Of a stretch of DNA of 32,260 bases, positions 1 through 32,260 are shown piece by piece (within the stretch, counting starts at the first letter, position 1; every line of letters begins with the position of its first letter). The translations under genes were made by a program, and so were the position numbers. The stretch comes from a virus, in IMG/VR virus record IMGVR_UViG_3300046167_000500, positions 1 through 32,260 of that record. One strand, written 5' to 3'. Below the pieces are notes generated by a model. It saw only the letters and a list, made by a program, of their open reading frames with translations. It was not told the DNA's origin and searched no databases.

Positions 1-107
1 CCTCGCGCGTACCCGCAGGGCAAAGTGTGCCATAGTACCTTTTTGTTTTAGCCTGTGCATTTATTAAACAATGGCGCGCAATTGCATGCAATTAAATCAA
101 AAGACAC

Positions 108-244: not shown

Positions 245-991
245 TCATGCGGCCATTACTTGCGGTTGCGGATCGATTACAAAGCCGGTTTCGTCTTTCC
301 TTGCTTTCCCTTTTGCATACAAAGCAACAATTGTTTGCTTTTTATCCAAGAAGCGCAAATCTGTTTTGTCACCATTTATTGTTGGCAACCCAAGAAAATC
401 GACTGGAATATTCTCAGCGCTACGAAACACAACCGCGATATTCATTCCACGATCTTGTGCAATCTTGGCCTGCTTGAGATAAATCGCGCTTGCTTCACTG
501 TAACTAAACGTCAAGTGATAATTGGGAATATCTAACGGCCGGTTGGCAATCTTTGTATAATCATAGAATTGAATACCTGGAAAGCGTTCAAAGATATTTT
601 GGCCGGCCGTATGAATATATTCCCATTGAATATCCGTTGTTCCATTCAATCTAACGGCCGGTTTTATGCCGCGCTTTTCGCAATAGTTTTGGAAACGCGT
701 TAAATCTTTGATCAATTGCGCCATGAAGCTTGCAATATCTTTTACAAACCATTCGGCTTTTCTTGCGCGGCCGCGCTGAACGCTATTCATTGCGCCGCGG
801 CCAGCCGTATTCAAGCAACCCGTCAAGCAACCGGCAATTTCGGCCATGGGGCAAAGATTGCGATTTAACGTCTTGTATGGCGTCATATACATAATGGCCG
901 TTAAATATCCGCTATCATTGCCCTTGACTGTTTTTGCATCTCCACCGGCGCGAATTAGATTGCCAATAAAGTTATATGTTTCTTTTTTCAT
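245..991 (-). CDS. GP88-like phage protein
   Basis: A 248-residue protein resembling the phage gene product 88 family of unknown function. The recognisable part is a cysteine cluster near residues 47-59 (CPMA, then GCLTGCLNTAGRG) followed by a basic stretch, suggesting a metal-binding or structural cysteine site. A further Cys lies near residue 104. No signal peptide or membrane segment is visible. The start is supported by AAGGAAG about seven bases upstream. It is the last gene of the early minus-strand region, followed by two terminators. The family call rests on the Cys motif and length; the function is unknown. Confidence 0.6.
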   Translation of the reverse strand: MKKETYNFIGNLIRAGGDAKTVKGNDSGYLTAIMYMTPYKTLNRNLCPMAEIAGCLTGCLNTAGRGAMNSVQRGRARKAEWFVKDIASFMAQLIKDLTRFQNYCEKRGIKPAVRLNGTTDIQWEYIHTAGQNIFERFPGIQFYDYTKIANRPLDIPNYHLTFSYSEASAIYLKQAKIAQDRGMNIAVVFRSAENIPVDFLGLPTINGDKTDLRFLDKKQTIVALYAKGKARKDETGFVIDPQPQVMAA

Positions 992-1065: not shown

Positions 1066-1248
1066 TCACCCTTCACAAACCAGGTTTAAGTAAAAACCGC
1101 CATTGTTAGGCGTCAAAAATCCAACGCCGCAATCGTCAGCGAAAAAATCCAAAAGCGCGAGATATGGCGTGGAATAAAGCGCCGCAAACATAAGCGCCAA
1201 TGCGACAAACCAAAACGCAATGTCACGTAGTCTTATTTGATAATCCAT
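1066..1248 (-). CDS. Small membrane protein, function unknown
   Basis: A 60-residue protein with one hydrophobic segment at about residues 10-31 (FWFVALALMFAALY), preceded by a short charged N-terminus, consistent with a single-pass inner-membrane protein. GGAAGG lies about seven bases before the ATG. Two cysteines lie in the C-terminal half. It sits between the repeat-framed gpZ-like gene and the GP88-like gene. I do not recognise a family. Confidence 0.5.
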   Translation of the reverse strand: MDYQIRLRDIAFWFVALALMFAALYSTPYLALLDFFADDCGVGFLTPNNGGFYLNLVCEG

Positions 1249-1381: not shown

Positions 1382-1467
1382 CTGTAGTGGAAAAGCTCAC
1401 CCCTGTAGTGGAAAAGCTCAGACCCCCTGTAGTGGAAAAGCTCACCCCCCTGTAGTGGAAAAGCTCA
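1382..1467. repeat. Four direct copies of an 18-bp repeat (downstream array)
   Basis: CTGTAGTGGAAAAGCTCA occurs exactly at 1382-1399, 1403-1420, 1427-1444 and 1450-1467, with starts 21, 24 and 23 bases apart and C-rich linkers between. On the minus strand each reads TGAGCTTTTCCACTACAG. The last copy supplies the TGA stop of the gpZ-like gene. Size and spacing resemble iterons, and TTTTCCACT differs from the DnaA-box consensus TTATCCACA at two of nine bases. Confidence 0.9.
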
Positions 1468-2154
1468 GCGCAGCTTTGCAGTGCGCAACGCCTGTATCCA
1501 AGCTTGCTTATACATAATCTTGAAATATTTATTCATGCCGCGCTTGACTGCGCGTTCAGGATTATAACCGCCCCGAATAGTGGCGCTCTTTGCTAAGCTG
1601 TGAAGTATCTTAATTTTCTTCTTGCCGGTGCGCTTGGCTATAAATGATTTGCCACCCTTTTGTAGAATAAATCCCTTGCCTGACTGCATAATGTTTCTAG
1701 GCTCAAAAGACTTATTAACAGCGCCAGCCCTAGCGCCAGATCTTTTACGGCTAACATTAGCCTCTATTGGAATAGCCAAGTTGCGTTTTAATCTAGGCGT
1801 CTTGATGCCGCCGGTAACATGCTTTTCCATAAATCTAGTTTGAGCTTTGCGCCCTCTTGTTTCTGGCCGTGCGCCTGGCGGGGATGGAAGGTCAGATCTT
1901 TGTATCGATGCAAGCGCCATACCTGTGCGCCGTATATGCCTAGCCGTGCTATTCCTGATTTGATGCACCTGTTTAAAAAACGCTTTGTTGCGCACCTCAA
2001 AGAACTTTCCATATTCCATGCGTAAATCAATATCACGACTGCTCTTGATTGCTTTATTGAGCGCCAATGATAGCGCGAATGGGGCTTGCTTAGTCACCAG
2101 GTCATCAAGCCGTCTTTCGATCTCTGGCACGTTTGATTTGATGCTAATATGCAT
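1465..2154 (-). CDS. gpZ-like minor tail protein, orphan and framed by repeats
   Basis: A basic protein of about 229 residues resembling prophage minor tail protein Z (lambda gpZ type). It has an N-terminal amphipathic region with ALNKAI, a very basic middle rich in Arg and Lys, and a C-terminal amphipathic helix. I chose the ATG at 2152-2154 because AGGGGG sits four bases upstream. A GTG at 2179-2181 would add nine residues encoded mainly by the repeat itself. The stop TGA lies inside a repeat copy. It is far from the tail genes (about 11.8-24.5 kb) and sits after the terminator of the replication operon. The gpZ assignment is by general resemblance; a DNA-binding role is an alternative given its charge. 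Confidence 0.55.
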   Translation of the reverse strand: MHISIKSNVPEIERRLDDLVTKQAPFALSLALNKAIKSSRDIDLRMEYGKFFEVRNKAFFKQVHQIRNSTARHIRRTGMALASIQRSDLPSPPGARPETRGRKAQTRFMEKHVTGGIKTPRLKRNLAIPIEANVSRKRSGARAGAVNKSFEPRNIMQSGKGFILQKGGKSFIAKRTGKKKIKILHSLAKSATIRGGYNPERAVKRGMNKYFKIMYKQAWIQALRTAKLR

Positions 2155-2162
2155 AAAACCCC

Positions 2163-2201
2163 CTGTAGTGGAAAAGCTCACCCCTGTGATGGAAAAGCTC
2201 A
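2163..2201. repeat. Two copies of the 18-bp repeat (upstream array)
   Basis: An exact copy at 2163-2180 and a variant at 2184-2201 (CTGTGATGGAAAAGCTCA), 21 bases apart and in the same orientation as the four copies at 1382-1467. On the minus strand the exact copy ends in CAGGGGG, the Shine-Dalgarno sequence of the gpZ-like gene. It also contains an in-frame GTG. Confidence 0.9.
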
Positions 2202-2215
2202 GGGAAGCTTAACAC

Positions 2216-2243
2216 AAAAAGAAACCCCGCGCAAAGCGCAGGG
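2216..2243 (-). terminator. Rho-independent terminator after the replication operon
   Basis: On the minus strand GCGC-rich arms (2225-2232 with 2236-2243, one mismatch in eight) close an AAA loop and are followed by TTTCTTTTT. It lies about 35 bases past the stop of the 48-residue gene, so it should end the transcript from the primase region. The gpZ-like gene beyond it would then be a separate unit. Confidence 0.7.
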
Positions 2244-2279
2244 CAGTAAGTAAGAAGTAAAATCATGAATGAATTTACG

Positions 2280-6049: not shown

Positions 6050-6443
6050 TCATCAATTCCCTACATAGATAGCAGAAGCCCTCGATGGAAAGCTCTACTA
6101 GGATTTTGCCATCGTCTTGCGTTCCGTACATCTTAGCAATGGCTTCTAAGCTTACGACTGCCCTTGGTTTATATCGATCATATTTATATATGACGCAGGG
6201 CATTTTATTTGCGGCTATCGCAGCCTTTTCTGATTGCTTCCACCATTCTGGTTTGCACCCAACGCCTGACTTGTAATGCTTGGCCTCGATGGAAAACGGG
6301 AACTGCTCATTGTCTGGGATAAGATCACCGCCTTCTGCTGTGCGGTATTGCTCTAGGTTTCTGGAGAAGGTTATTCCTAATTCAAGAAATAGCGCCTTTC
6401 CCAAATCTCTCTCCCATTTAGCCCCCTTTGATCGATTAGACAT
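6036..6443 (-). CDS. PDDEXK Holliday-junction-resolvase-like nuclease
   Basis: A 135-residue protein with a compact PDDEXK core. SKGAKWERDLGKAL carries the leading Glu, EGGDLIP the acidic residue, and FSIEAKHYK the E-x-K pair. The size and the GGD...EAKHYK pattern match phage Hjc-like resolvases, which trim branched DNA before packaging. It overlaps the end of the ribbon-helix-helix gene and the start of the exonuclease gene, indicating translational coupling. A generic structure-specific endonuclease is the alternative. Confidence 0.75.
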   Translation of the reverse strand: MSNRSKGAKWERDLGKALFLELGITFSRNLEQYRTAEGGDLIPDNEQFPFSIEAKHYKSGVGCKPEWWKQSEKAAIAANKMPCVIYKYDRYKPRAVVSLEAIAKMYGTQDDGKILVELSIEGFCYLCRELMNDPR

Positions 6444-6603
6444 CTAAATCTGGTTGCTCTGTTATGATGTCATGTTTTGCCAGGTAATCCCGCAATGCAT
6501 CTTGCGCGATTGTAGCCATGCTGCGGCGATATTTTTTCTTGAACAGCTTCATGCCTTCGACAATATTGCCATCAATTCTAACGTGTAAATCATGTTGTTC
6601 CAT
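6436..6603 (-). CDS. Arc-like ribbon-helix-helix regulator
   Basis: A 55-residue protein beginning MEQHDLHVRIDG, fitting a beta strand that contacts DNA followed by two helices (SMATIAQDALRDYLAKHD), the Arc/MetJ ribbon-helix-helix plan and about the length of Arc. I chose the ATG at 6601-6603 because AGGAG lies five bases upstream. A longer reading from 6669 lacks a ribosome site and would run through the divergent control region. It is first in the minus-strand early operon, next to a palindrome that is a natural target for it. Autoregulation is inferred. Confidence 0.75.
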   Translation of the reverse strand: MEQHDLHVRIDGNIVEGMKLFKKKYRRSMATIAQDALRDYLAKHDIITEQPDLDV

Positions 6604-6644
6604 ATTCTCTCCTACCAAAATGGTTGCACTTTGGTACAAAACAT

Positions 6645-6659
6645 TTGACAGTTCGTCAA
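6645..6659. promoter_or_regulatory. Divergent promoter region with palindromic operator
   Basis: TTGACAGTTCGTCAA is an inverted repeat with 5-bp arms. The plus strand has TTGACA (6645-6650), 18 bases, then TAAAAA (6669-6674). The minus strand has TTGACG inside the same palindrome, with a weak TACCAA 17 bases on. Both -35 boxes overlap the palindrome, so one bound dimer could control both directions. The -10 matches are only moderate. Confidence 0.5.
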
Positions 6660-6696
6660 CAGTCATCATAAAAAGATATTATGAAGGGAGAAAATC

Positions 6697-29242: not shown

Positions 29243-31029
29243 TCACCTATAACCGTGAACGAACGAATTGCGGCGCGGCAATGCTGGACGCCTGACTTGC
29301 TGAGGTTTGTCCGATTGTACCTTATTTTGGGCCTGTTTTGCAACAGTATCCATGTTTATATTTAAAACAGCCAAAGCCGCAGTCGCATAAACCCGACAGT
29401 CAAGCGCTTCGTTGCGCTGCCTAATCTTCACCCATTCACGTTTTGGACGCCCTTTGAAATACTTAACCACTCTTTTTTCTGCGGTAAGCATCCTAAAGTA
29501 TTCCTCGTTTCGTCCAATCGGGAAGTGACAATATCCCGCGCCCTCTTCAGTCATCTTTAGGCGAGCATACACTAATTCTTTCGCTGTATCTACTCCCACA
29601 GGGAATAGGTTGATTTTACCGATATTATTCTTGCTTGGCCTGCCGATCACAGGCTTGCCCTCGCCACCGATACCCTTGATAGCGAACACCCGCCTGCCCG
29701 CACGATTTCGCGCATAGTTGTAAACTTGCTGCGTGTAATGACCGCCACTATCGATGCAGGCCGATCTAAGCGTCATGTCACCAGATAGCGGATGTGTGTA
29801 TGTACGCTGCAACGCCCTATCCAGATCGATCCATAATTCCTGCTGACGATGGATCACCATATAAGACGTTGTAGTCGATTGACCAACTTTCTCTCCCACG
29901 ACCCCAGCCAACTATCTCATACTCCAGTCGATCATCTTGAACATCCACTCCAGCAGTCAGCATCAGGACGCCTTCAGGTAGCTCATCGCCCCAATCCTTC
30001 TGCCCGATCAATCAGATCATATTCGTCAAGCATCTCGCCCTGCTCTTCCCACGTCTCGCCCTAGAAATGTATTCACCCATGTCTTCAGGCGCATAGGATC
30101 ACGCTTTGACTTAATAAACTCATCAACCGCATCAGAAATCGCCACCCAAGGTGAATACAGCGCAGATATATGAAATCCAGCAATACCTTTGAACTCCTCT
30201 GATGCCCTCCATTCCCCAAAAGATATAGGCCTTTTGCCTCTGAGCATCAGACCATGCTGAACCGCATTCCTCGCAGTAATATGCGGCTGTGTTGGGGTCT
30301 CTGTCAGTCCACTGCACATTTGCCCACCTTCAAATATTGGTATTCACCACAATGAGGGCAGGGAACATAAAACTTGCGCTTGTCGGTTTCCTCATAAGGC
30401 AGCCTCTATTCGTGAAGGCTCCCTTTTCAGTCGGGGTGCTAACTAAGACTATCTTTCTGTTCCAAAATGTAAGAGCGCGTTTTGTAGGCCAGCGCTATGG
30501 GGTCACCCTCTTCTTTTGCCGACAAAGGATAGCGATCAACCTCGTCGCATAGGACAACTCTTATCGGCCTAGACGCTAGGCCCGCTGGGCTATTCGCCCC
30601 CACAAGGCTCAATGCACCAGCAGGGAATGTCTTGTGCAGGGTTGTGTTGCCGCTATCTCTGGCTCTTGGGTCTTTGACTTTACCCCTCAAGCTAGGGGTG
30701 GTTGCAAGCAGGCCAGATGTAATTCTATCCTTTGAGAAGGATTGAGCCATTTCCACAGTTGGCTGCATCATCAGAATAGGGCTTGGATCATATTCGATAT
30801 GGTATCCGATAATATTTAATAACGCCTCAGACTTGCCAAGCTGAGCGCCAGCCATGACTACCACTTGCTTGATGGATGGATCTGAGCAAGCGTCCATTAT
30901 GCCACGCTGATATTCTGCGCGTGAAGTTCGCCATTTCCCCGCTTCTGAACTACTTTGAGAGCTTAGACGCCTTCTTTGGTCTGCCCACTCGCTTACGGTC
31001 AGTTTTGGTGGTGGCTTCAGTATCGACAT
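29243..31029 (-). CDS. Terminase large subunit (gpA-like), frameshifted
   Basis: Packaging motor ATPase and nuclease of the lambda gpA group, about 592 residues after repair. The start chosen is the ATG at 31027-31029 (MSILKPPPKLTVSEWADQRR). Motifs: MAGAQLGKSEALL as Walker A, VVLCDEVDRYPLS as Walker B, VSTPTEKGA, the CPHCGEYQYL...CEECGSAW zinc-like cysteines, and the nuclease part with TAGVDVQDDRLEYE and ACIDSGGHYT. Eight skipped bases (near 30471, 30415, 30396, 30327, 30235, 30060, 29996, 29849) join the pieces; the repaired length is divisible by three. It overlaps TerS by 80 bases. Confidence 0.85.
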
Positions 31030-31372
31030 CGCCCCCTTCAACTTCTCCGACAGTGATTGTCGCGCCTGTTGGGTCTGAAAGTGGCTCATAGTTTGAGAGT
31101 TCATCAAGACATTCCTTTATTTCATCCTCCAACCTAGATTGAATTATAGATGCGTCATCTTCTGCAGATAAAGCTGGCCCAACTTTCGTAGGAATAGCCA
31201 GCAACTTGGCCTTTAATGCAGCTAAAACCTCATCCCAAGCCTTCACCACGTCAGCGACTATAGCAAGGTCATTCCTTATCTTGGCAAGCTCAAGCTCTGC
31301 TATCTCAGCTTCAGCCGATACTTTTCTAGTTCTGGCCTCATCATAGGTTAAATATGAGCTTGCGTCATTCAT
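30950..31372 (-). CDS. Terminase small subunit (Nu1-like)
   Basis: A 140-residue protein that should recognise the packaging site for TerL. It has the Nu1/TerS layout: a helical N-terminus with YLTYDEARTRKVSAEAEIAE, a central LAIPTKVGPALSAEDDASII region, then a helical oligomerisation part (LEDEIKECLDELSNYEPL) and a basic C-terminus ending RVGRPKKASKLSK. It follows the HNH gene (overlap of four bases) and overlaps the TerL start by 80 bases. Confidence 0.75.
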   Translation of the reverse strand: MNDASSYLTYDEARTRKVSAEAEIAELELAKIRNDLAIVADVVKAWDEVLAALKAKLLAIPTKVGPALSAEDDASIIQSRLEDEIKECLDELSNYEPLSDPTGATITVGEVEGGDVDTEATTKTDRKRVGRPKKASKLSK

Positions 31373-32181
31373 CTTTGCACCATCTTTTTTTTTACGCGGC
31401 TGAACTCATCTAATGTGCGTGTCTGCTTTGCCGAATTGCAACTCAAGCACATAATCGTAATATTCGATAAAATATGCTTACCTCCACGCGAAAGAGGTAC
31501 ATCGTGGTCTATTGTTTTGTTCGATGGCGTGACAGGATAATTCTGCGTCATCTTTACGCCACAATGATCGCAATGCTCTGCATGTCGCAGCATATCGCTT
31601 AAGATCTTGACAGTTATACTGCCATCGTCTGTTAGCCTGATCTGTTCCATTCTATCAGGCTTGTCAGAATAAACCTTTGCCTTAGCCGCCTCACAACACT
31701 TGCAATATGGACGCTTTTTATCGCGGCCATTCGGGCCAAATGAAAACTCGTCAAAAGACAAACGAAAACCACACTCAAAGCATGTTTTCATCTGCTCCCT
31801 TATATCAGTCTCAATCTGCTCCCAAGTTCTTCTAGTACTGCAACAATAAGGCAAATATGCTTTTTGCCGTTCATTGTAAAAATACTTACGCGGCTTTTCG
31901 CATCCGCAATTAGTGCATTTTTGTATCTCTGAAAGCCATGCTTCTCTTTTTTGCTTCGCTTCTATTGACGCCTTGACTGCTGATGGCGATCTATAACCTG
32001 AACCTTTGCCATATTTCTTATTATGACAAGACTTACATATAGATTGGTACTTGCCGCTAGATTTATTGAAATTGGCGTCTGGATGCCAATTCTGACAAGA
32101 GTTACAATACACCTCACAAATGCCAGAAACGTTGCGAAGCCTAGACTGATATTTCTTCTGCGAAAAGTTTAAAGTGGCCAT
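31369..32181 (-). CDS. HNH endonuclease with repeated zinc ribbons
   Basis: A 270-residue protein. Three or four treble-clef-like zinc modules come first (CEVYCNSCQNW...CKSCHNKK; CTNCGCEKPRKYFYN...YCC; CFECGFRLSFDEFSF...YCKCCEAAK). An HNH nuclease follows: CDHCGVKMTQ, TIDHDVPLSRGGKHILSN and IMCLSCNSAKQTRTLDEF, with the DH pair and Asn/His metal sites visible. HNH enzymes next to TerS are often needed for DNA packaging in HK97-like phages. No Shine-Dalgarno is visible before the ATG at 32179-32181, so the start is uncertain and may be leaderless. Confidence 0.85.
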   Translation of the reverse strand: MATLNFSQKKYQSRLRNVSGICEVYCNSCQNWHPDANFNKSSGKYQSICKSCHNKKYGKGSGYRSPSAVKASIEAKQKREAWLSEIQKCTNCGCEKPRKYFYNERQKAYLPYCCSTRRTWEQIETDIREQMKTCFECGFRLSFDEFSFGPNGRDKKRPYCKCCEAAKAKVYSDKPDRMEQIRLTDDGSITVKILSDMLRHAEHCDHCGVKMTQNYPVTPSNKTIDHDVPLSRGGKHILSNITIMCLSCNSAKQTRTLDEFSRVKKKMVQR

Positions 32182-32184
32182 GAC

Positions 32185-32260
32185 TAGAGAAGCTACCCGA
32201 TTCCGAACCGGAGGTCAACGTAAATCCTGAATGGCGAAACACAACGTGCCTCACGCGTAC
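32185..32260. promoter_or_regulatory. Right-end control/packaging region
   Basis: This non-coding end holds a near-palindrome at 32197-32211 (CCGATTCCGAACCGG, 6 of 7 arm pairs). A minus-strand TTGACC spaced 17 bases from TAGCTT at 32190-32195 could be a weak promoter for the late operon, with the start site close to the HNH ATG. The last 12 bases (32249-32260) nearly match bases 1-12. Confidence 0.3.

Follow-up and report, generated by a model that had tools for sequence, protein, structure and literature searches.

A short asymmetric sequence is arrayed in tandem on both sides of a gpZ-like gene in the phage DNA analyzed here, and we tentatively read the arrays as binding sites for a protein, resembling operators or stoperators, at the operon junctions around this gene (probability roughly 45%). 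The window is the whole 32,260-nucleotide stretch of IMG/VR record IMGVR_UViG_3300046167_000500. In the proposed model, the two tandem arrays are copies of one cis-acting site on either side of gpZ, the right-terminal conserved gene of a cos siphophage of lytic type. A DNA-binding protein would sit on the units and control polymerase where the replication operon, gpZ and the accessory and late genes adjoin, in the manner of the operators and stoperators of cluster A mycobacteriophages. Because an otherwise different phage also carries the motif, its role is probably that of a control site rather than the end of a mobile gene cassette.

The window holds five exact copies of an 18-mer, starting at 1382, 1403, 1427, 1450 and 2163, and a sixth copy at 2184 with two changes. 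Searching the window at up to 3 mismatches returned these six alone, against a mean of 0.02 in shuffled sequence. All six lie on one strand in the same direction, in two clusters that flank a single gene, and read along that gene as TGAGCTTTTCCA(CT/TC)ACAGGGG. The features of this region, all on the minus strand, are as follows.

1382 to 1399, minus strand: 3' unit 4, exact copy
1403 to 1420, minus strand: 3' unit 3, exact copy
1427 to 1444, minus strand: 3' unit 2, exact copy
1450 to 1467, minus strand: 3' unit 1, whose TGA (1465-1467) is the gpZ stop codon
1465 to 2154, minus strand: gpZ-like minor tail or tail-completion gene, 229 aa from ATG (PHROG 1924, E 9e-10)
2163 to 2180, minus strand: 5' unit 2 (TGAGCTTTTCCACTACAG); the GGGGG that follows, with the unit's AG, is the gene's Shine-Dalgarno sequence, AGGGGG
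2184 to 2201, minus strand: 5' unit 1 (TGAGCTTTTCCATCACAG), two changes relative to the reference
2224 to 2244, minus strand: terminator-like hairpin between the replication operon and the gpZ gene (folding z -4.1)

These coordinates bear out the preliminary description of four copies downstream and two upstream of one gene, with the stop codon inside a downstream copy, the Shine-Dalgarno sequence at the end of the exact upstream copy, and a terminator separating the gene from the replication operon. The in-frame GTG assigned to the upstream copy does exist, but its G sits in the spacer just outside the unit.

The likeness of the gene product to minor tail protein Z also held up in the profile search that had been proposed for it. 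The window protein matched PHROG 1924 'minor tail protein' at E 9e-10 and its relatives matched at 1e-14 to 1e-91, and by this profile the predicted product is a gpZ-like minor tail protein. A Pfam search of the window protein returned no match, PF06763 appeared below its cut-off in one relative only, and the predicted structure was poor (pLDDT 64) and gave no fold match.

The gene had been called an orphan more than 9 kb from the other tail genes. That distance exists on the linear map only, as the contig ends are cos, and the gene belongs to a right-terminal block facing terS. The features that bear on the genome ends are as follows.

1 to 43, minus strand: right genome end, conserved cos block ...GGTACTATGGCACACTTTGCCCTGCGGGTACGCGCGAGG
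245 to 991, minus strand: accessory gene GP88 (PF17338, E 1e-44), in the slot between gpZ and cos
1066 to 1248, minus strand: putative 60-aa membrane protein, first in the accessory slot
30950 to 31372, minus strand: terminase small subunit (PHROG 57, E 2e-18), the next conserved gene across cos
32249 to 32260, minus strand: left genome end, GTACGCGTGAGG, repeating the right end's 12 bases with one difference

Both window ends share GTACGCG(C/T)GAGG. The contig L007, which is 96% identical over the first 5.3 kb, continues through the end junction into terS and terL, and the block CCTGCGGGTACGCGYGAGGCACG recurs before terS in L014, L018, L033, L038, L040, L041, L044 and L047 and, with one change, in phage CRP-811. 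The cos sequence at the ends, the read-through in L007 and the recurring block before terS make it most likely that the window spans a complete genome from cos to cos, with gpZ as its right-terminal conserved gene. Contigs and published linear genomes of repeat-less relatives end ~33-100 bp past the gpZ stop codon, in sequence of the GGGTCCTTC...GGGTTATTCG type. The gene also stands at the genome end next to cos and terS in RcCronus, F10, S-CBS3, phi3LM21, Psul1 and CRP-406; this synteny is conserved, and the place next to cos is ancestral. The seemingly misplaced tail gene is thereby put at its usual genome-end position.

The neighborhood of cos is variable in other respects. Left of cos, the window and L007 differ though they are otherwise 96% identical: the window TerS (30950-31372) is without the N-terminal winged-helix part present in L007 TerS, and an HNH/endonuclease VII gene stands in front of it (31369-32181). 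Between the 3' array and cos lies changing cargo, including GP88, DUF7227, a 412-aa protein and others, with GP88 or DUF7227 often following the array. The near-identical phages L018, L020, L026, L033, L038, L041 and L151 alternate GP88, DUF7227, the 412-aa MKTVF protein and small acidic proteins in this right-end accessory slot, and the variation among near-identical phages begins ~500 bp past the 3' array. The 60-aa protein at 1066-1248 resembles by eye a 92-aa MCKECRTYP protein of group-A phages. Two readings tied to this region were rejected. The arrays are not cosB or TerS binding sites, as cos is 1.4 kb away and the arrays of the window and L007 are alike even though the window TerS lacks the DNA-binding N-terminus. 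They are not an iteron region of GP88 either, as 76 of 79 independent GP88 loci had no array, no other upstream arrays rose beyond noise, and cargo varies behind constant arrays.

We scanned 2.9 million viral contigs by the repeat alone, defined as two 12-mer cores within 34 bp, and recovered 43 contigs. A gpZ-like gene adjoins the array in 40 of them; among the other three, L017 breaks off inside gpZ, and L023 and L042 resemble the Roseobacter phage CRP-6. A looser motif scan added no new setting. The phages with arrays are marine and have Roseobacter viruses as relatives. The site consensus is TGARCTTTTCCA(TC/CT)(GG/AC)NGGGG, in which the core TGARCTTTTCCA barely varies, with positions 1-3, 5, 7-9 and 11 of its 12 bases at or near 2 bits. 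The gpZ proteins beside this near-fixed core are only ~20% identical between clades, a disparity that points to a trans-acting partner.

Placement is as regular as sequence. In nearly all contigs the gpZ stop codon, at offset -3 from the end of the reading frame, marks the start of the 3' array, and units point with gpZ transcription wherever gpZ is present. Arrays sit in both junctions around the gene; the ribosome-binding site of gpZ lies in the last 5' unit, and the 5' array opens at the stop codon of the preceding gene in 5 of 10 groups. In 4 of 10 groups, against 0.57 expected, a hexamer resembling a -10 box ends 4-5 nt ahead of the first 5' unit (P 0.001, for a position chosen after inspection). 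Only 3' units were present in L019, L024, L027, L031 and L037. Steps between units are most often 21, 27 and 23 bp, and steps of 16, 19 and 29 bp also occur. Even between the window and L007, which are 96% identical, two of the six units are of a different type. The number of copies and the type of unit evolve rapidly around a conserved core.

A diverged version, ATTTCCAYYGSMGGG, occupies the same gpZ stop codon in L162, L167 and their kin as arrays of 10-15 units, and the sequence shared with this most diverged version is TTTCCAYYG(G/C)NGGG. When 40 gpZ loci classed as repeat-free were tested, a 12-mer repeated at least 3 times was found only in L162, L167 and two unrelated near-copies. Since L162 and L167 bear diverged arrays at the same stop codon, the window's gpZ clade carries arrays throughout where downstream DNA is present.

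Other repeats were seen during the survey. Further families, namely GGTTCAAAAGTTAGACT, GATTTYARAGCRGTCTA and palindromes CTGCGNCGCAG, lie directly behind the arrays in L021/L035 and L047 (behind the 3' array) and in L009, L025, L039 and L050. In L234, a contig without a gpZ match, positions 1900-2250 hold four TTTCCAYYGGAGGGT units in AT-rich non-coding DNA with CTTAG-rich repeats. Nanoarchaeota/Pacearchaeota contigs L051, L053 and L055 carry intergenic tandem repeats of the TGAGCTTTTCCAC type at 17-20 bp steps, which are probably unrelated. Six matches in bacterial and archaeal genomes were coding repeats or unrelated DNA. A text search of the literature for the 11-mer and 12-mer led only to papers that appeared unrelated by their titles and the opening of their abstracts, and no repeats are mentioned in the publications describing CRP-811 and CRP-6.

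The repeats and the gene can be found apart. CRP-811 (L057), a phage of Roseobacter FZCC0198, has the bracket, and CRP-822 and CRP-406 of the same family have gpZ without arrays, as do RcCronus and F10; CRP-822 and its relatives infect hosts of the same CHUG lineage. Conversely, CRP-6, reported to be novel and highly mosaic (PMC6918029), has no gpZ and carries its units in a 595-bp divergent intergenic region upstream of the late operon. These units are oriented with the late operon, one of them lies within the spacer of a TTGACC-17-TAGAGT promoter of the opposite operon, and the metagenomic kin L023 and L042 repeat the arrangement. In the same region of CRP-6 (L229, 44500-44740), more than 8 copies of GTTGCARAAATGTCAC-like repeats stand beside the TGAGCTTTTCC units, and GANTC sites are many. 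Apart from GP88, present in two of the three, the only genes common to the window, CRP-811 and CRP-6 are tail genes, which phages without arrays have too.

The preliminary description had offered a movable cassette, or moron, with the repeats as its recombination ends, and had named a gene without repeats as evidence against it; both that and repeats without the gene were found. Only a weak form of the cassette survives. Against L012, the window gpZ is 26% identical, compared with 59-70% for TerL, 83% for the portal and 61% for the capsid. Across phages of the other gpZ clade (L012, L017), TerL, portal and capsid are 59-83% identical to those of the window, as they are within its own clade (L018, CRP-811), while gpZ drops from ~40% within the clade to 20-26% outside it. 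Because the backbone is equally similar but gpZ is not, gpZ has been replaced on a common backbone. Homology between repeats at both ends could let gpZ genes exchange as a cassette, a reading favored by the two ~20% identical clades sharing one bracket on equally related backbones and by a stop codon always supplied by the repeat. We nevertheless regard it as very unlikely. The similarity breaks that can be resolved fall away from the repeats: the downstream similarity of L009/L012 sets in ~400 nt behind the array, and L043/L049 match at 97% identity as far as the start of gpZ, diverging from there on. In several groups 5' units are missing, neither an integrase-like partner nor a recombinase or inverted end turned up, no other or foreign gene was seen between arrays, the gene holds the ancestral position at cos, and CRP-6, whose units have no matching empty flanks, would stay unexplained. 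Ends of an IS21-type or other transposon were rejected as well, the repeats being direct and without plasmid matches.

The main rival to a control site, which we consider unlikely, is that the units are iterons of a replication origin, where an initiator would bind the direct repeats and load the RepA-type helicase encoded just upstream, with gpZ simply located within or next to this origin. Direct repeats of 16-21 bp at mostly 21-23 bp steps downstream of a helicase-primase operon would suit such an origin, as would the iteron-rich, origin-like setting of the CRP-6 units and the other repeat families behind several 3' arrays. The period and the CRP-6 setting are the parts of the earlier origin proposal that fit. 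The skew check it suggested gave no switch near 1.4 kb, only drift along the window, and the idea that the gene was inserted into the repeats fails because gpZ holds the same place in array-free phages. Steps of 16, 19, 27 and 29 bp also depart from a regular period, the replication genes of CRP-6 and CRP-811 differ, no initiator common to CRP-6, CRP-811 and the window was found at BLAST sensitivity, and the closely related CRP-822 and CRP-406 manage replication with no such repeats.

It is very improbable, in our view, that the units act in RNA, either as a start-associated translation signal or as an antitermination or stability element of the gpZ transcript. The stop codon and Shine-Dalgarno sequence within units and the strict orientation recall the Start-Associated Sequences of cluster K phages (PMC3203893), and some arrays fold strongly (L009, z -6.0). 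Yet no structure is consistent (window arrays, z -0.8 and 0.15; L018 5' array, z +1.2), Rfam gave no match, most units follow the gene with no start codon nearby, and the CRP-6 unit sits antisense in a promoter.

From the conserved array we infer an operator. A double-stranded site read by a protein acting on transcription is favored because of the strict orientation, the overlap with stop codon and ribosome site, the placement at operon borders, the copy inside a promoter in CRP-6, and the lack of a consistent RNA fold or Rfam match. Counted for a control site are the gpZ gene at the array in 40 of 43 contigs, the orientation, the -3 offset, the upstream stop codons and -10-like hexamers at the 5' arrays, the promoter unit of CRP-6 together with L023 and L042, and the core surviving in the L162 and L167 variant. 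Counted against it are a window 5' array without a convincing promoter, sites confined to one or two clusters per genome, the array-free CRP-822 and relatives in the same CHUG host lineage, and the groups with 3' units only.

As to the protein, the best-placed regulator candidate in the window is a weak RHH-like match (6436-6669, PHROG E 0.006), which BLAST did not find in CRP-811 or CRP-6. Because BLAST found no phage gene that tracks the arrays or is restricted to their bearers, the binding protein may be the host's. A more specific proposal, which we think quite unlikely, is that a host DNA-binding protein from marine Rhodobacterales, rather than a phage repressor, recognizes this orientation-dependent array in lytic phages that are unrelated to each other and serves as a polar roadblock or switch between replication and late regions. 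If so, phages would share the array as a control module that has spread horizontally and whose subtype specificity changes fast. The motif is a strong cis-element, easy to search for and present in abundant marine phages, and since two bearers are cultured (CRP-811 and CRP-6), the regulation of roseophage gene expression becomes testable.

Among known systems, the gpZ genes (PHROG 1924) next to cos in RcCronus, F10, S-CBS3 and CRP-406 are homologous and hold the same place between replication genes and terS, but have no arrays, with cos ~33-100 bp past the gpZ stop. Iterons of plasmid and phage origins likewise lie downstream of replication genes as direct repeats in tandem, spaced by about two turns of the helix; here the period is variable, there is no shared initiator and no skew signal, and close relatives lack the units. 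Start-Associated Sequences of cluster K have one orientation, contain a Shine-Dalgarno sequence and can include the upstream stop codon, and their function is unknown (PMC3203893). The units share all three traits, but Start-Associated Sequences precede many genes, 3-7 bp before the start codon, whereas here only the last 5' unit does so and most units follow gpZ. Stoperators are asymmetric, follow the direction of transcription and occupy promoters and the gaps between genes (PMC9283540). Those of the cluster A mycobacteriophages L5 and TipsytheTRex share with the present units their shortness, asymmetry and single orientation, and the overlap with promoters and short intergenic gaps also occurs here, at the stop codon, the Shine-Dalgarno sequence and the CRP-6 promoter. 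They differ in being single 13-bp sites bound by the phage immunity repressor, ~20 or more of them dispersed over the genome. The window has six sites in two clusters, and the arrays stand in tandem at one or two junctions, with no repressor found, in a phage family of the CRP-822 type reported to be without integrase (PMC12629253). The arrays thus fall outside stoperators in site number and spread, and outside Start-Associated Sequences in their place relative to start codons. Anatomically, Start-Associated Sequences come closest; as a working model, stoperators do.
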